Shown here piece by piece: positions 2,831-25,492 of a DNA stretch of 34,286 bases; the stretch's first letter is position 1, and each line of letters begins with the position of its first letter. The DNA is from a virus, in IMG/VR virus record IMGVR_UViG_3300046794_000211, positions 1 to 34,286 of that record. One strand, written 5' to 3'. Both the position numbers and the translations under genes were made by a program. The notes below the pieces were generated by a model. The model was given only the letters and a program-made list of their open reading frames with translations, did no database searches and was not told the DNA's origin.

Positions 2831-3652
2831 TCAAGGGTTCACAGTGATTACAGGAAGCCCGGACTGGGCGTTGACGATGTTCAGCACCGGAGCGATCACT
2901 TCGGTGGCTTGCAGAACTTGCGTGGTGGCGTAGTCGACGCTGTAGAACAGGTCGATCCGGTACAGGTCAGCCTTTTGAAGGTGGTCAGTCATCAGCGACC
3001 CGGCGGAGGTGATGATCCCGCTGGAGCCGTCCGTGAAGGTGATGTTGTTGCTGTCGGACAGCACAGAATCGAGCTGATCAGCGACGGCGGCCCTCGCCTC
3101 TGGTGAATTGGCCCAGACGATGATCTGCACCACCTGCTCCTGACGCTTTGTTTCCTTGAAGGCCGTACCGAACCCGCCAACACGCGTGAAGACGCTGTGA
3201 GCGCCTGCGAGCGTGATCACCGGCCCTACGTTGGAGGCGCCGGGGATCATCGAGGCAAGCGCGGTGGCGGCCGTCGTGAGCGTGTCCGTCACCTGCATGG
3301 CGTACACGTAGTGGGTGCCGTTGAGGTTGATCAGCAGGTTCTGCTTGCTGACCGTCCCCGACAGGGTCACCACTGCGCCGGCGACCGTCATAACGACCGT
3401 GTGCACTGGCGTTGTCAGGATCTCCCAGCCTCGGCCGAGGTATCGCGTGGTTTTCCGGTCCTTGCCGTGCGGGTAGATGCTGATATGGGCAATTCCTGCC
3501 TTTAGGTCGTCGTCCAGCACGTTCGGTACCGGCCAGCCCGGATAAACCTTCACCGGAATGCCCGAGGCGCTCGGCTGACCGATGCCGTTCGGGTAGGCAA
3601 TGGCGGCGATTTGCGCTGCGAGCTGCTTCGTTACGTCGGTTAGGCTCGCCAT
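2831..3652 (-). CDS. Phage structural protein, tail completion or terminator candidate
   Basis: This 273-residue protein lies between a connector-type gene and the sheath, the usual place of a tail terminator or tail completion protein that joins tail to head. The N-terminus (LTDVTKQLAAQIAAIAYPNG) is a helix of the sort seen at the start of such proteins. The middle and end are beta-rich, with RVGGFGTAFKETKRQEQVVQ followed by IIVWANSPEARAAVADQLD. I do not see a diagnostic motif, so the role is inferred from gene order. The start ATG has AGGT a short distance upstream. Confidence 0.6.
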   Translation of the reverse strand: MASLTDVTKQLAAQIAAIAYPNGIGQPSASGIPVKVYPGWPVPNVLDDDLKAGIAHISIYPHGKDRKTTRYLGRGWEILTTPVHTVVMTVAGAVVTLSGTVSKQNLLINLNGTHYVYAMQVTDTLTTAATALASMIPGASNVGPVITLAGAHSVFTRVGGFGTAFKETKRQEQVVQIIVWANSPEARAAVADQLDSVLSDSNNITFTDGSSGIITSAGSLMTDHLQKADLYRIDLFYSVDYATTQVLQATEVIAPVLNIVNAQSGLPVITVNP

Positions 3653-8485: not shown

Positions 8486-9966
8486 ATTCTCAGAGGTTCG
8501 CTGGTGGCGGTGCGTTTACGGCGGCCTTTGGCCACGGCGAAGTAACGGAAGGCGTCGGCGGCATGGGATGACCAGTCATGGAGCGGCTTGTCTTTCCAGC
8601 AGCCGCGCTTGTCGTCCCACTCCTTGCGATAGTTTTCCAGAGCGGAAACCCCCTTCTCGCACTTGGAGTCGTCGAAGGCGCAGCGGGCCAGGATCTCCCG
8701 GGCCTGCTCGATGCCTTCGTCGATGCCCAGCTTCGGCACAACGCTGAATTTGATGCTGTATTTGGTGCCGTCGATCTCATAGCCCTCTCGGGCCAGCTCG
8801 CGGCGCGTTTTGCCATCGCTACCGAACTCACGGTTGTCGATGTCGTGCGGCCCCCAGTGCTCGCCGTACGTGTAGCCTCGATCCTTCAACACCTTCATGT
8901 AGTGCCGCAGGCCTTCTCCGCTGTTCTCGTAGAAGTCGACGATGTGGTATTCCTCACCGACGATCCGGACGAACCAGATAGCCGTGGAGTCGCCCACGCC
9001 GATGTCCCAGAACGTGTGCACTGGAAGGTGATCGTTTTTCGGTATCACGCCGACGCGCTGCTCGCCGTAGAGTTTGGCGAACTGCTTCGCGTAGTAGGCA
9101 CCCTCAATCGACTGCTGGAAGGCTTCGGTAGGCAGCGACGGGTATTCCCGCTTCATGTCATCGCCGAGCGTCTTCTCCTTGGCCGCGTACCAAGCGCGCT
9201 GGCCGTCGCTAGTGACGACCCCGTGCTTGGCTGCCAACTCAGCGAAGTAGTCGGTCAGGCGCTGCGGGATGACCACTCCGGCAGGGTCGAGGCAGTAGTC
9301 CTTGTTCTTCCACCAGGAGAAGAAGAAAAACTTCCAGTCCAGCAGGCCAAGGGGAACGCCGGATAGTTGCTGCTTCTCGGCGCTCTGGCTGTAGTCGAAG
9401 AAGTAGCCCGCCCTGCCCTCAGCCGTCGATTCGATCGTGACGAAACAGTCGGTGGCCACCGCCTCGAAGGCGCCGGTGACGATCTCGCGGGCCTTATGCG
9501 GGAACTTGGCGCAGATCTTCCCGAACTCGGAGACGTGCAGGTAGCGCAGCGTGCCCCCCCGGAAAGAGGTGGAAACGTAGATCGAGCCGCCCTTGTTGAA
9601 CACCAACTCACCCGAGGCGTCGTTGCGCGCCGGGTTGGCCTTGCGGATATCAAGCGGCAGGTTGTCGTAGGCGTATTTCACCTTTTCCCGGAACAGGCGC
9701 TTGGCGTCGTTCAGGGTGTGGGCAATCAGCGCGCACTTGGCCGACTCGAAAAGCGCGGCGTCCAACTGAATGATGCAGCATTCGGTGGTGAAGCCGAGCT
9801 GACGAGCCTTGAGGATGATATTGCGGGTATGCAGCCCATCGAAGTACTCGATCTGCTCGTCCGTCATCTTGAAGCGGACTTTTTTGCCCTGCTTGTCGGT
9901 GATGAAGTACAGGTTGTTCAGGCGCCAGCGCTTATCCCGGAGCAGCTTCAGATGCTCGGGCTTCAT
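8482..9966 (-). CDS. Terminase large subunit
   Basis: This 494-residue protein is the packaging motor. The ATPase half has a Walker A-type motif KARQLGFTT at residues 53-61 and, near residue 145, RYLHVSEFGKI, which carries the Walker B acid region. The nuclease half has the RNase H-like start TFWDIGVGDSTAIW, whose first Asp is a metal ligand, and the usual C-terminal Asp-rich end (SSHAADAFRYFAVAKG). The length is normal for the family. It begins 1 nt after the small subunit gene and overlaps the portal start, so the three are translationally coupled. Confidence 0.95.
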   Translation of the reverse strand: MKPEHLKLLRDKRWRLNNLYFITDKQGKKVRFKMTDEQIEYFDGLHTRNIILKARQLGFTTECCIIQLDAALFESAKCALIAHTLNDAKRLFREKVKYAYDNLPLDIRKANPARNDASGELVFNKGGSIYVSTSFRGGTLRYLHVSEFGKICAKFPHKAREIVTGAFEAVATDCFVTIESTAEGRAGYFFDYSQSAEKQQLSGVPLGLLDWKFFFFSWWKNKDYCLDPAGVVIPQRLTDYFAELAAKHGVVTSDGQRAWYAAKEKTLGDDMKREYPSLPTEAFQQSIEGAYYAKQFAKLYGEQRVGVIPKNDHLPVHTFWDIGVGDSTAIWFVRIVGEEYHIVDFYENSGEGLRHYMKVLKDRGYTYGEHWGPHDIDNREFGSDGKTRRELAREGYEIDGTKYSIKFSVVPKLGIDEGIEQAREILARCAFDDSKCEKGVSALENYRKEWDDKRGCWKDKPLHDWSSHAADAFRYFAVAKGRRKRTATSEPLRM

Positions 9967-19257: not shown

Positions 19258-19311
19258 CAGAATATTGTGCACAGCAATGAAAGAAACCGGGATTGCGCCC
19301 CGGTTTTTTTT
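19258..19311 (+). ncRNA. Candidate OOP-like small antisense RNA
   Basis: From the promoter above, transcription would start near 19258 and stop at the terminator at 19285-19311, giving an RNA of about 50-55 nt with no open frame of note. The lambda OOP RNA lies in the same relative place, between O and cII, on the opposite strand. The sequence itself is not shared with OOP as far as I can see, and the RNA does not overlap the RHH gene's coding region unless it reads through. So this is a positional inference. Confidence 0.45.
19285..19311 (+). terminator. Rho-independent terminator on the plus strand
   Basis: AACCGGG (19285-19291) pairs with CCCGGTT (19299-19305) with a 7-nt loop, followed by eight T. 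No plus-strand gene ends here, so it calls for a short plus-strand transcript. Confidence 0.7.
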
Positions 19312-19367
19312 CGTCTTCAAATCGGTGATTCTTTTCATCGAGTCCTCAATAGTCCCTCGGGGACTTA

Positions 19368-19556
19368 TCAGCCCTTACGCCCCAGTGACGCGACATTGCT
19401 TCGGCTTTTTGGTGGCCGTGTCATGCGGTCGAGCGCTTTATTGATGATTCTTGCCGCGAGCTCTTCGGGTGGAATGCCTTCATGTCTGGCTAGTTGCTCC
19501 AGTTCGGCAAGTCCTCTCCCGTCAAGCTGGATTTCCAGCTCTTTTGTTTCGGGCAC
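19368..19556 (-). CDS. Ribbon-helix-helix protein 1
   Basis: This 62-residue protein fits the ribbon-helix-helix pattern: a short beta strand (KELEIQLD), then helix A (GRGLAELEQLARHE) and helix B (PPEELAARIINKALDRM), with a basic tail. It probably binds DNA as a dimer. It starts with GTG, 4-5 nt after a strong AAGGAGG. It sits with a second RHH gene between the Cro-like gene and O, the place of cII in lambda. A hairpin without a T tract (19351-19365) follows. Confidence 0.65.
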   Translation of the reverse strand: MPETKELEIQLDGRGLAELEQLARHEGIPPEELAARIINKALDRMTRPPKSRSNVASLGRKG

Positions 19557-19574
19557 AGGTCCTCCTTAGGCACT

Positions 19575-19763
19575 TCAGGCCACATCGGTCTTCGAGGTAA
19601 GCTCTTCCATCATCTGGGTCAGTCCACGCTCAAGAATTTCGCGGGCCAGTACGGCTTTTTGGGTGCGTTGATACCTGGCCATTGCGGTCAGCAAATCGTC
19701 GGCAGCGTCATCAAGGCGGACCTTGGTGGGCTTGTCATGCAGGTGGGTCGGGTCTGTGTACAT
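19575..19763 (-). CDS. Ribbon-helix-helix protein 2
   Basis: This 62-residue protein also fits the RHH pattern: strand KPTKVRLDD, helix A AADDLLTAMARYQ and helix B KAVLAREILERGLTQMMEE. It ends 18 nt before the GTG of the other RHH gene. RHH repressors such as Arc and Mnt of P22 act in immunity or antirepressor control, so these two may set the lysis/lysogeny choice in place of CII, but no direct sign of target sites is seen. Confidence 0.65.
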   Translation of the reverse strand: MYTDPTHLHDKPTKVRLDDAADDLLTAMARYQRTQKAVLAREILERGLTQMMEELTSKTDVA

Positions 19764-19793
19764 AGGTCGATTCCTTGCGTGGTTGAAATTTGG

Positions 19794-20033
19794 TTAGGCG
19801 GCAGATTTCTTTGGGTGCGCTTCGGCAAGCAGCCACGCGCAATCGAACGGCTTTCCATGAAGGGCAGCCAGCTCAGCAATTTTCTTGGCGTATTGGGTTT
19901 CGCCTGTGTACTCGGTGCGCGGCAATGCGTCGGCAACAAGCCACTTGTAGATAGCTCTAGGGGTCTTCCCACAGGCCAAAGCCACAGCAGGTACACCACC
20001 GGCATCATCAATCGATTTCTTGAGCGGCCGCAT
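19794..20033 (-). CDS. cro: Cro-like repressor
   Basis: This 79-residue protein is the first gene of the early-right operon, divergent from the CI-type repressor. It has one HTH (GGVPAVALACGKTPRAIYKWLV, residues 12-33) of the Cro/YdaS type. Cro-type proteins shut down repressor synthesis and drive lytic growth. The ATG has GGAGG 4 nt upstream. Its promoter would be the TTGCAT-16-CATAAT at 20069-20096, about 29 nt of leader away. Confidence 0.82.
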   Translation of the reverse strand: MRPLKKSIDDAGGVPAVALACGKTPRAIYKWLVADALPRTEYTGETQYAKKIAELAALHGKPFDCAWLLAEAHPKKSAA

Positions 20034-20053
20034 AAGGCCTCCGAGTCAAATAT

Positions 20054-20123
20054 GAACTTACAGTACATATTATGTCGGAACTGAAAGTACATGCAAGAGC
20101 ATGCGATGCTGAACCTATGGTTC
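20054..20123. promoter_or_regulatory. Rightward operator region with three operators of the form GWAC-N5-GTWC
   Basis: Three sites are visible: GAACTTACAGTAC (20054-20066), GAACTGAAAGTAC (20078-20090) and GAACCTATGGTTC (20111-20123). Centre spacing is 24 and 33 bp. The first two are followed by AT and lie across the -10/+1 and the spacer/-35 of the rightward promoter. The third overlaps the proposed repressor start. The same half-sites recur at the leftward promoter, so they are likely CI/Cro operators. Confidence 0.7.
20069..20096 (-). promoter_or_regulatory. Early rightward promoter (PR-like)
   Basis: On the minus strand TTGCAT (20096-20091) and CATAAT (20074-20069) are spaced by 16 nt, giving a start near 20062 and transcription into the Cro-like gene. 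Two operator-like palindromes overlap it. Confidence 0.6.
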
Positions 20124-20977
20124 AGATAGAAGATATTCGCGCGGCATTCGTCGCCCGGCTAAAAAAAGCGTTATCCGCACACGGCATTGACCAGTGGGGC
20201 GCAGGCGCTCGCCTGGCTGAAATCGCCAAGGTCACCCCAAAGGCTTCGAGTAAATGGCTCAACGGCGAGACGATGCCTGGCCCTGCGAAGATGCAGACTA
20301 TTGCGGATGCGCTCGGCGTGAAGATTGAGTGGCTTCAGCACGGATCAGGAAAAGATCCGGCGCTCTCGCGCATGCCCGATGCAGATGTAGTTGGCGCCGA
20401 GGTTAAATCTGCCGCCGATATCGTGCGTGAGATGCTCTCAAAGCAAGGGAAAGGACTTTCTGAAGACGCACGCAGGCGGCTGCTTGAGGTGGCCGAAGCA
20501 GATGACGGCGGCGGTGCGATTGAGATCGACTACTACCGTCCTGGCGTTGTCGGCGACGAGGTGTGGATTGCGCACTACGATGTTCGCGCCGCGATGGGTG
20601 GCGGACAGATCCCACATGATTATCCCGAGATGCTGCAGGATGTCCGCGTCAGCCCGCAGCATCTGCGCGAGATGGGCGTCGAGTTCAAGGAACACTTCCA
20701 TCTCAAGATGGTGACCGGCTGGGGTCAATCAATGGCACCGACCATCAAGCACCGAGACCCCCTGCTCGTTGATATCAGCATCCGTGAATTCACGGGTGAT
20801 GGGATCTACATGTTTTCCTGGGAAGGTCACCTCTACATCAAGCGCCTTCAGTGGCTGGGTGACGAACAGATCAACATGCTCTCTGACAACCCTCGGCATC
20901 CGCCTCAAACTATCAGAGCCGAAGACACCTATATCCAGGCGCGCGTGCTGCTGGTCTGGAATGCGAACCTGGTGTAA
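20117..20977 (+). CDS. cI: CI-type repressor with S24 (LexA-like) peptidase domain
   Basis: This 286-residue protein is the prophage repressor. The N-terminal HTH (residues about 15-60, with GAGARLAEIAKVTPKASSKWLNG) binds operators. The C-terminal half is an S24 self-cleavage domain: catalytic Ser205 in GQSMAPT and Lys242 in YIKRLQ. At the expected cleavage site the sequence is RAAMGGG, with Met160-Gly161 in place of the common Ala-Gly. An earlier in-frame ATG at 20072 would add 15 residues, but it lies within the operators and has no ribosome site. So I prefer 20117, itself inside the third operator. Confidence 0.9.
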   Translation: MVQIEDIRAAFVARLKKALSAHGIDQWGAGARLAEIAKVTPKASSKWLNGETMPGPAKMQTIADALGVKIEWLQHGSGKDPALSRMPDADVVGAEVKSAADIVREMLSKQGKGLSEDARRRLLEVAEADDGGGAIEIDYYRPGVVGDEVWIAHYDVRAAMGGGQIPHDYPEMLQDVRVSPQHLREMGVEFKEHFHLKMVTGWGQSMAPTIKHRDPLLVDISIREFTGDGIYMFSWEGHLYIKRLQWLGDEQINMLSDNPRHPPQTIRAEDTYIQARVLLVWNANLV

Positions 20978-21000
20978 TCAACCCAAAAGTCATCTCGAAG

Positions 21001-21031
21001 GCGCCAGTTTTGCAAGCATGGCGCTTTTTTT
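21001..21031 (+). terminator. Rho-independent terminator after cI
   Basis: GCGCCA (21001-21006) pairs with TGGCGC (21019-21024), followed by seven T. It ends the repressor transcript and separates it from the P63C-domain gene. Confidence 0.75.
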
Positions 21032-21094
21032 GTGCTTGCATTCATTATGACCCCGTCCTACCATGCAAGCATGACAAATAGGAGATGCTTGCAT
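21010..21094. promoter_or_regulatory. Four ATGCWWGCAT palindromes at the P63C gene promoter
   Basis: Sites are TTGCAAGCAT (21010-21019), GTGCTTGCAT (21032-21041), ATGCAAGCAT (21063-21072) and ATGCTTGCAT (21085-21094). Two are perfect palindromes and two have one change. Centre spacing is 22, 31 and 22 bp, close to whole helical turns. They cover the -35, -10 and start of the gene, so they look like operators for a repressor other than CI. The first lies in a terminator loop and could be chance. Confidence 0.6.
21036..21064 (+). promoter_or_regulatory. Candidate promoter of the P63C-domain gene
   Basis: TTGCAT (21036-21041) and TACCAT (21059-21064) are spaced by 17 nt. The -10 matches four of six bases of the consensus. 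Two of the ATGCWWGCAT sites overlap these elements, which is what repression would need. Confidence 0.45.
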
Positions 21095-22064
21095 GTCAGA
21101 GAAAAACGAATCCAAGGCTGCGGGCGGAAATGCCCGCGCTAAAGCGCTTTCGCCTTTAGAGCGCTCAGCGATTGCGAAAGCAGCGGCTGCTGCTAGATGG
21201 GGGTATGCAGTCAGTCATAAGGGCAACTTCATGGATGCCTTCGGGATCGATGTTGATTGCTACGTACTGAACGACGCCGGAAAAACCGCAGTCATCAGTC
21301 AAATTGGGATGGGTGTAATACTTCTAAACGAAAACTCCGGCGGAAGTGCCCTTCATCGCTTTGCGAAAGGCAAAATCATCTCCCAAGCGTTAGGAGCGAA
21401 TATCCTAGAAAAAATCGGTAACCCACTGATTTTCAAAGGCGACCATGCAGGAGCGAAAGGACAATTTCAAGGTCAGGTGAACGGGTACCAAGTTGACCTT
21501 CTGATCGATATTTGCCAAGCCCTTATCATGGCTGACAGTCGTGGGGAACTGGGGCCGAGATACGCGAGAATTGCTAATCAGGCTCGCATAATCCTGGGTG
21601 CCTCTGCCAAAGCTGGCATTCAAGGGCTGGTTTATGCACTTGCCGGTTACGATCGTACGAAAGAAGAGGTAATTGAAGCCTACAAGTTGTATGTACGGGA
21701 CGAGGCTCGCGAATATGAGAAGGAGTTCTCCCCAGAGCTATACGAACAATGGTATCGACTTTATGGTCTCGAAAAACCAGAGCGCGGGCGACCTTGGGAA
21801 TTTAAATACCTGACAATCGACCACATCTATAAGCCTCTCGCACGCAGCCAGGGAAAAGTGTTCGATCTTGCTAAGTCCAACAGGCAAGCAAATGGTGAAA
21901 AGGGTTTGAAGATCCATAGTTTTCTATCAGAAATTGGTGTGAAGGCGCTTCGGACGCAGATTGGCAAAATTATCGGTATAGCAACTGTTTCCGATTCAAG
22001 GGCTGAGTATGAAAGGTACATTGCCGAAAAGGTTCACGGACAGCCAAGCCTAGATATCTACTGA
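21093..22064 (+). CDS. P63C-domain protein, cargo gene
   Basis: This 323-residue protein resembles the P63C-domain family. The C-terminal half has the family-type stretch EEVIEAYKLYVRDEAREYEKEFSPELYEQ, then WYRLYGL and YKPLARSQGKVFD, which I associate with P63C. The N-terminal part (residues 30-150) begins AAAAARWGYAVSHKGNF and holds a motif GMGVILLNENSGGSALHRFA. Function is not known. It is poorer in GC than its surroundings and has its own promoter, operators and terminator, like a moron expressed from the prophage. The ATG has GGAG 8 nt upstream. Confidence 0.75.
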   Translation: MSEKNESKAAGGNARAKALSPLERSAIAKAAAAARWGYAVSHKGNFMDAFGIDVDCYVLNDAGKTAVISQIGMGVILLNENSGGSALHRFAKGKIISQALGANILEKIGNPLIFKGDHAGAKGQFQGQVNGYQVDLLIDICQALIMADSRGELGPRYARIANQARIILGASAKAGIQGLVYALAGYDRTKEEVIEAYKLYVRDEAREYEKEFSPELYEQWYRLYGLEKPERGRPWEFKYLTIDHIYKPLARSQGKVFDLAKSNRQANGEKGLKIHSFLSEIGVKALRTQIGKIIGIATVSDSRAEYERYIAEKVHGQPSLDIY

Positions 22065-22083
22065 TGTTAACTCTGAACCCAGC

Positions 22084-22108
22084 AGCCCGGCCCTTAGCCG
22101 GGCTTTTT
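22084..22108 (+). terminator. Terminator after the P63C gene
   Basis: AGCCCGGC (22084-22091) pairs with GCCGGGCT (22097-22104) around a 5-nt loop, followed by T. It lies between convergent genes, so it may serve both. Confidence 0.75.
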
Positions 22109-22116
22109 GTTGTCCT

Positions 22117-22428
22117 TCAAAAAGGCGCCGCCTCCTCCGCCGGCTCAAACACTTCTACCGGCTGATCTTCCTCGGCGCTCGCCTCCCACTTCAGCGTCAC
22201 CGATTCGTCGTCGTTGAAAGTCATGTCTATGCCGTCCGTCTCGGAAAGCAGCCCCATCACCTCTTCCCACTCCCTCTCCCCGTCCGTGTCCAGACGGTGG
22301 ATCGTTACCCAGCGCTGGGTCTGCGCGAAAGGGTGATTGATCATCGATGAGACGCGCAGGCCAAGCCTTTCAATGCCGCTCATTTCCCGCCGTTCGCCCT
22401 GCTTTTCTTGTTTTTTCGCCTTCGCCAT
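22117..22428 (-). CDS. Hypothetical acidic phage protein
   Basis: This 103-residue protein has a basic, Lys/Gln-rich N-terminus (AKAKKQEKQGERREMSGIERLGLR), a folded-looking centre (HPFAQTQRWVTIHRLDTDGEREWEEVMGLL) and an acidic Pro/Glu-rich end. I do not know its function. The ATG at 22428 has GGAGG 5 nt upstream; a TTG four codons earlier overlaps that site. It is encoded away from the leftward promoter, on the strand opposite to the early-left operon. Confidence 0.68.
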   Translation of the reverse strand: MAKAKKQEKQGERREMSGIERLGLRVSSMINHPFAQTQRWVTIHRLDTDGEREWEEVMGLLSETDGIDMTFNDDESVTLKWEASAEEDQPVEVFEPAEEAAPF

Positions 22429-22530
22429 TTCAGCCTCCAATTACTGTACATGCATCCAGTGCAGAAGATCATAGCCTGACCAAATCCAAAGCGTAAACAA
22501 CGAATCGAAGTTCATCTTTTTATAATTTAT

Positions 22531-22567
22531 GTACTTTTGGTACTTGACCAATGTGAACCACTGGTAC
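22531..22567. promoter_or_regulatory. Leftward operator region, two GWAC-N5-GTWC sites
   Basis: GTACTTTTGGTAC (22531-22543) is a perfect palindrome of half-sites, and GAACCACTGGTAC (22555-22567) is followed by AT as at the rightward sites. Their centres are 24 bp apart, the same as the first two rightward operators. They flank and overlap the promoter at 22544-22572. A GAAC half-site (22588-22591) falls where a third site would be. Confidence 0.7.
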
Positions 22568-22572
22568 ATATT
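22544..22572 (+). promoter_or_regulatory. Early leftward promoter (PL-like)
   Basis: TTGACC (22544-22549, 5 of 6) and CATATT (22567-22572, 4 of 6) are spaced by 17 nt on the plus strand, giving a start near 22579 and a leader of about 580 nt before the first clear gene. A TATAAT at 22521-22526 lies upstream without a good -35. Operators flank it on both sides. Confidence 0.6.
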
Positions 22573-22576
22573 TGCT

Positions 22577-23023
22577 TCAGCGCCACAGAACAACGAGGCG
22601 CCAGGGACTGAAAAGGACCGACCGCTCTTTAACATTGATAGACCGCCGAGCCTGCAGGCATAGCAGGCCAGCCAGCACAACAAGTGCGACGGCTGCGATC
22701 AGGTGTGACAGCCCTGAAGCTGTCATCCAAGTGGCACGCAGGCCCCAAGCGATGTGGGAAGCGTGATCCGGTGTGAGCGAGCCGGGCCTGAGAGATGAAG
22801 CACCGATTTCAAGAATTAGCGGTCCCGATAGCCTCGGCTGGGAACGCCGGACCTCATGCACCCTGCCCCATTCAATCGGGCATTCAGAGCTGTAGCGTGC
22901 ATGTTGTAAGGACCTGTGACCCATGGCGAACAGATGCTGATTGACACCATGGTAGGAAGCTCGAAGCCCACCCACGAAGACGACGGCCAGCCCTGCAATC
23001 AGCAGCGGGCAACTGGCACTCAC
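22577..23023 (-). CDS. Putative membrane protein opposite to the leftward leader
   Basis: This 148-residue reading frame has hydrophobic helices near residues 6-22 and 107-130, and a soluble middle with good protein-like sequence (RASYHGVNQHLFAMGHRSLQHARYSS and SLRPGSLTPDHASHIAWGLRATWM). It starts with GTG at 23023 without a clear ribosome site. It lies against the leftward transcript and overlaps the boxA. Codon choice looks coding, but I have no homologue in mind, so this could be real or a fortuitous frame. Confidence 0.42.
   Translation of the reverse strand: MSASCPLLIAGLAVVFVGGLRASYHGVNQHLFAMGHRSLQHARYSSECPIEWGRVHEVRRSQPRLSGPLILEIGASSLRPGSLTPDHASHIAWGLRATWMTASGLSHLIAAVALVVLAGLLCLQARRSINVKERSVLFSPWRLVVLWR
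22623..22634 (+). promoter_or_regulatory. boxA-like antitermination element in the leftward leader
   Basis: The sequence CGCTCTTTAACA is the same as the boxA consensus found in bacterial rRNA leaders apart from the first base, and close to lambda nut boxA. It lies about 45 nt after the predicted transcription start. The PL transcript must pass a terminator at 23902, so an antitermination site makes sense. I could not name a matching boxB or N-like protein. Confidence 0.55.
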
Positions 23024-23162
23024 CGATGACGCAACAACCCCGATCCGACGCCAGTAGCGTGACCGGGTTCAGATGGCGACCTGCTGTTTCAGGCCAGCCA
23101 TCTGGCTTTACAAATGCCTCTCACACCCCGGGAGGCATTTGAAAGCCAACGGAGCAAGCGTG

Positions 23163-25361: not shown

Positions 25362-25492
25362 GAGTCATGGCCTCCCGCGTCTACTCGTTCAGCGATCTCC
25401 TCAAGCGCATTGACCTGGAGTTCTGGCGCGTCCGGGAGCACAACGAAATGAACTACACGTTCATCCCACTTCAATACTGGGGAGGTGATTGA
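25358..25492 (+). CDS. Micro-protein of the coupled gene series
   Basis: This 44-residue protein has a helix (SFSDLLKRIDLEFWRVREH) and an aromatic end (YTFIPLQYWGGD). It overlaps the gene before by ATGA and shares one base with the next (TGATG). A second, longer frame covering this part starts earlier, but the coupled ATG at 25358 is better supported. Confidence 0.55.
   Translation: MRVMASRVYSFSDLLKRIDLEFWRVREHNEMNYTFIPLQYWGGD

Follow-up and report, generated by a model that had tools for sequence, protein, structure and literature searches.

GWAC-N5-GTWC operators of a probable HK022-type immunity region in a lambdoid phage of Pseudomonas type

The immunity region of coliphage HK022 was reportedly described by Oberto et al. 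in 1989 and by Carlson and Little in 1993. In phage lambda, CI and Cro compete for OR, the early promoters are PR and PL, cargo lies between cI and OL, and there are three operators on each side. The HK022 record (X16093) instead shows three GWAC-N5-GTWC operators at OR (TGAACCATAAGTTCA and variants), spaced by 24 and 33 bp, and an OL pair spaced by 24 bp, with the AUG of cI inside the third OR site; an additional operator, TGTACTTTTAGTACC, lies at 3324, about 270–300 bp downstream of OR. HK022 CI is reported to bind cooperatively within OR and within OL, and to loop the two together (PMC8053113).

We analyzed the whole of a 34-kb virus record (34,286 nucleotides, hereafter the window) from a lambdoid phage of Pseudomonas type, which shares the HK022 operator motif, site spacings and cI start position. 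With lambda it has in common PR and PL, cargo between cI and OL, and a CI and a Cro that would compete at OR. The five sites reported in the earlier note were all exact matches to GWAC-N5-GTWC, and their window coordinates were confirmed: OR1 (TGAACTTACAGTACA, 20053–20067, motif 20054–20066), OR2 (GGAACTGAAAGTACA, 20077–20091, motif 20078–20090), OR3 (TGAACCTATGGTTCA, 20110–20124, motif 20111–20123), OL2 (TGTACTTTTGGTACT, 22530–22544, motif 22531–22543), and OL1 (TGAACCACTGGTACA, 22554–22568, motif 22555–22567). Start-to-start distances were 24 bp (20054/20078) and 33 bp (20078/20111) at OR and 24 bp (22531/22555) at OL, in agreement with the 24-bp spacing noted before for the first two sites of each side. 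The arrangement had been described as a lambda-like three-plus-two layout, yet three plus two is the layout of the HK022 record and not of lambda, from which the window also differs in operator sequence and recognition helices; neither lambda operators nor a lambda-type CI helix were found in the window. A third left operator was not found in the window either, while many Pseudomonas relatives carry an additional one, placed within a distinct promoter that points left.

Across the whole window, the motif occurred exactly eight times, against 1.11 expected (sd 1.0; maximum of 4 in 100 shuffles), with three matches away from both promoters, at 9907, 25450, and 31305. In a whole-window scan with a 17-bp matrix, for which the earlier note had predicted no or few matches elsewhere, the five sites scored 18.4–22.6, followed by a single comparable match at 25450 (18.2), absent from that note, and a next best of 12.5. 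A second matrix, built only from the OR sites of other phages, returned the same five sites and 25450 as its top six in the window; since the window OL sites were absent from the training set, this amounts to an independent prediction borne out. The OR-trained matrix also recovered OL sites in nearly all relatives whose sequence extended far enough downstream, and the HK022-type operator motif TGWAC-N5-GTWCA was present at both OR and OL of the window. The claim that the sites occur only at the two promoters is thus nearly, although not strictly, true, because 25450 ranks among the top six. This match is a near-perfect operator-like palindrome (ATGAACTACACGTTCAT, 25450–25462) within an ORF of 44 aa that belongs to the early operon running rightward. 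We considered it as a sixth operator and rejected it, since it sits in a small ORF and 2.5% of simulated windows attained its score; the ORF was shared by no relative among the loci compared, and the match is probably due to chance.

The genes around these sites follow a lambdoid order. Leftward from OR lie a gene for a Cro-like repressor (79 aa, 19794–20033, minus strand) and then O-like and P-like replication genes, while rightward cI (20117–20977, plus strand) comes first and is followed, where lambda has rex, by a P63C-domain gene (21093–22064, plus strand). A DUF1654 gene read leftward is next, then OL and, beyond it, an Erf/RecE-like/SSB operon. With cro and the replication genes left of OR and the recombination operon right of OL, PR must point left and PL right, so that the terms “rightward” and “leftward” used earlier for the two promoters hold in lambda naming and are physically reversed. 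PR (20069–20096, minus strand) consists of a −35 box TTGCAT (20096–20091), a 16-bp spacer, and a −10 box CATAAT (20074–20069); it was read by position, as a consensus scan did not call it, and sits relative to OR1 and OR2 as the annotated HK022 pR does. PL (22544–22572, plus strand; TTGACC at 22544–22549, 17 bp, CATATT at 22567–22572) was called by the consensus scan. OR1 lies at the cro transcript start, downstream of the PR −10, and OR2 fills the space between the PR −35 and −10; on the other side, OL2 abuts the PL −35 and OL1 sits in the spacer of PL and reaches as far as the −10, the same overlaps as those of the annotated HK022 pL. The proposed overlap of the sites with −35/−10 elements is therefore real, and operators and boxes are in the same register as in HK022 at both OR and OL.

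Downstream of PL, a small hairpin (22580–22601) is followed by a boxA (CGCTCTTTAACA, 22623–22634, plus strand). In 56 of 73 loci, GCTCTTTAA lay at a distance of 75–111 bp from where OL2 starts, compared to a background of 0.045 per kb, and hairpin and boxA together suggest an antitermination leader. Further along, positions 22801–23147 are largely noncoding, and parts of this segment share 76–87% identity with several Pseudomonas phages that differ elsewhere, including UFJF_PfDIW6 and PseuP_222; an Rfam search gave no credible match, this segment included.

The predicted repressors resemble those of HK022. CI (286 aa) combines HTH_3 and S24 peptidase domains, with both Pfam and PHROG matches. 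Across 63 distinct sequences, third-codon-position variation begins at 20117, and because codon periodicity begins there and HK022 cI likewise starts within OR3, we place the cI start at ATG 20117, inside OR3. An alternative start at ATG 20072 was rejected on the same two grounds, as 20072–20116 lacks a codon-position pattern. In the self-cleavage region, a by-eye alignment places AAMGGG opposite ASAGPG of HK022, so that Met-Gly may take the place of the usual Ala-Gly bond in this CI. The CI recognition helix is VTPKASSKWLNGE compared to VTPKAISKWFNGE in HK022, with VTPKAxSKW in both, and Cro reads TPRAIYKWL...LPRTEYTGETQYA compared to TPKAIYKWL...LPRTEFTGETEYA, with TPxAIYKWL in both. The Cro-like protein is 66% identical to HK022 Cro over 41 aa, and its match to P22_Cro is weak.

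CI of the window and CI of HK022 are only about 29% identical overall, TPKAISKWF and TPKASSKWL differ at one helix residue and at the residue after KW, and the central operator bases differ from those of HK022, which would fit a locus that is HK022-like with a drifted fine specificity, i.e., one whose CI and that of HK022 would not cross-repress and would not form one immunity group. Against this, the two phages have identical half-sites and spacing, as well as TPKA and SKW in both helices, and we regard such drift as a substantial possibility that falls somewhat short of an even chance.

Next, we evaluated the conservation of the sites across relatives. A CI search of IMG/VR yielded 80 loci, of which 72 encode the same DNA-binding domain. 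OR1, kept in all relatives, and OR3 were found at the same offsets in 72/72 of these, and the near-invariant OR2 was exact in 70/72; across the 63 distinct sequences, half-site bases were essentially fixed while intersite and neighboring bases varied. All three OR sites were likewise present in 13/13 genome loci, from 12 Pseudomonas genomes and Halomonas borealis. OL1 and OL2 were also conserved: a pair 24–25 bp apart was found in nearly all IMG/VR loci reaching far enough, even though its distance from cI varied from about 1.4 to 6.5 kb. Conversely, scanning IMG/VR for the three-site spacing alone gave at least 118 loci, some of which overlap the CI-derived set. Among the matches listed, 104 of 118 encode a TPxAxxKW helix beside OR; the remaining 14 comprise 4 that are cut off, 2 with a variant helix, 2 ambiguous, and 6 unrelated or repetitive.

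On the cI side of OL, the leftward DUF1654 gene (phrog_2707; 22117–22428, minus strand; Pfam and PHROG matches) forms a separate unit. Its promoter, called by the consensus scan (TTTACG-18-TATGAT, 22468–22497, minus strand), has no operator in its spacer in the window, and a LexA-type SOS box (CTGTACATGCATCCAG, 22444–22459) of the same form as the host lexA and recA boxes lies between promoter and gene. A CTG-N10-CAG box was found at this place in 71/72 loci compared to 0.03 per locus by chance, a leftward promoter TTTAC(C/G)-17/18-TAT(A/C/G)NT near OL in 62/72, and the DUF1654 gene directly next in at least 63/72; the gene is probably SOS-regulated. In roughly half of the loci, the 17-bp promoter spacer is itself a GWAC operator, which would place DUF1654 under both LexA and CI control there. 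The predicted fold of the protein is a moderate model (pLDDT 72.5) for which no PDB match with E ≤ 0.001 was obtained, and among the open-access papers searched, DUF1654 was found in only one.

Natural recombinants tie the operators to the CI DNA-binding domain. In eight chimeric loci (L083, L085–L088, and L090–L092), the CI C-terminal domain is 88–96% identical to that of the window, while the DNA-binding domain is only 35–42% identical. There, TTAACCGNCGGTTAA-type operators were found at OR in 8/8 loci and at OL in 7/7 loci reaching OL, with the OL surroundings (DUF1654 gene, LexA box, TTGAC −35, and boxA) largely unchanged. Halomonas borealis (L104:7900–12100) provides the converse case: its prophage repressor has a related DNA-binding domain (56%) and lacks the S24 peptidase domain, and the accompanying operators conform to GWAC-N5-GTWC, with the OR spacing of the window and an OL pair 25 bp apart. 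Operators thus follow the DNA-binding domain, and the exchange of this domain together with all operators, kilobases apart, represents a clean case of co-exchange of mutually dependent parts in mosaic phages.

These swaps also bear on which protein reads the sites. A matching Cro helix and a nearby LexA box could indicate that the main reader of the sites is Cro, or a host regulator such as LexA, rather than CI. However, the LexA box differs in sequence from the operators and stays in place when they change, and CTG-N10-CAG, the pattern of the LexA regulon, is lacking at all five sites. Where the CI DNA-binding domain is exchanged, the operators are exchanged with it, and Cro also differs in those chimeras where it was read, so that a reading mainly by Cro or LexA appears very unlikely. 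That the sites are chance palindromes, as a short motif, AT-rich flanks, and the three further matches in the window might suggest, is extremely improbable given their clustering, exact spacing, conservation over about 85 loci, and joint exchange with the CI DNA-binding domain.

Based on the sites, their geometry and conservation, their covariation with the CI DNA-binding domain, and HK022 homology, the five sites are very probably the three OR and two OL operators of an HK022-type lambdoid immunity region. Counting against this reading are the extra good match at 25450, the lack of a confident PRM identification, and the missing HK022-style operator downstream of cro, for which no match with ≤2 mismatches was found within 19300–20045 although the same search detected the 3324 site in HK022 itself; this operator counts as accessory, being missing from Citrobacter phage Omnitron as well. 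From this HK022-type reading we infer CI and Cro binding, cooperativity, OL-OR looping, OR3 autorepression, and SOS cleavage. In a lysogen, a CI dimer would use its N-terminal HTH (helix TPKASSKW) to occupy OR1/OR2 and OL1/OL2, with cooperativity probable within each pair, and the two regions may be looped together as in HK022. Bound CI would cover the −35/−10 boxes of both PR (leftward; cro and replication) and PL (rightward; recombination). With the start codon of cI lying inside OR3, a repressor bound at this site would restrict the synthesis of CI, which suggests autoregulation. Cro, with its matching helix, would act on the same sites, and DNA damage would lead to CI cleavage through the S24 domain, freeing PR and PL together.

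Compared to HK022, the window has a longer OL-OR distance (about 2.4 kb versus about 0.7 kb), and it differs further by the P63C gene between cI and OL and, next to OL on the side facing cI, by the DUF1654 unit with its LexA box. Across relatives, the cI-OL interval (20978–22116 in the window) is highly variable cargo, with 115 ORFs of ≥130 aa in 78 clusters over about 72 loci and matches to the candidate defense families PDC-S05, PDC-S42, PD-Lambda-2, HipA-like, and Imm_superinfect. Pseudomonas phage phi297 shares the lambdoid order and, next to its OL, both the LexA box and the DUF1654 gene. GWAC operators were found at neither OR nor OL of this phage, where ATAAG-N4-CTTAT-like repeats were seen by eye instead. 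Among named phages, the OR region was found in Riah and vB_PstS-pAN (Pseudomonas), Omnitron, and several Klebsiella phages. Riah and Omnitron match the window in both the sites and the spacing of OR and OL, with the operators unannotated in the Riah record and the Omnitron record lacking annotation, while vB_PstS-pAN, Klebsiella phage 2 LV-2017, and relatives are 78–86% identical over 73 bases of the OR region. One could go further and propose a single cross-genus HK022-type immunity group (Escherichia, Klebsiella, Citrobacter, Pseudomonas, and Halomonas) in whose Pseudomonas branch DUF1654 is an SOS gene gated by CI and LexA, in the half or so of relatives with an operator in the spacer, and possibly an induction helper or antirepressor; this combined proposal is speculative, and we consider it rather unlikely.

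The earlier note had taken the operator family to define the immunity specificity of this phage. Conservation, the pattern-only scan, and natural swaps strongly support its role in specificity, yet the specificity is HK022-type, already published, and not private to this phage. The resulting operator code is usable for a large set of uncharacterized Pseudomonas phages, making immunity groups and superinfection exclusion predictable from sequence. Taken together, the HK022-type specificity is of a known kind, found here in a new host group and thereby extended beyond enterobacteria.
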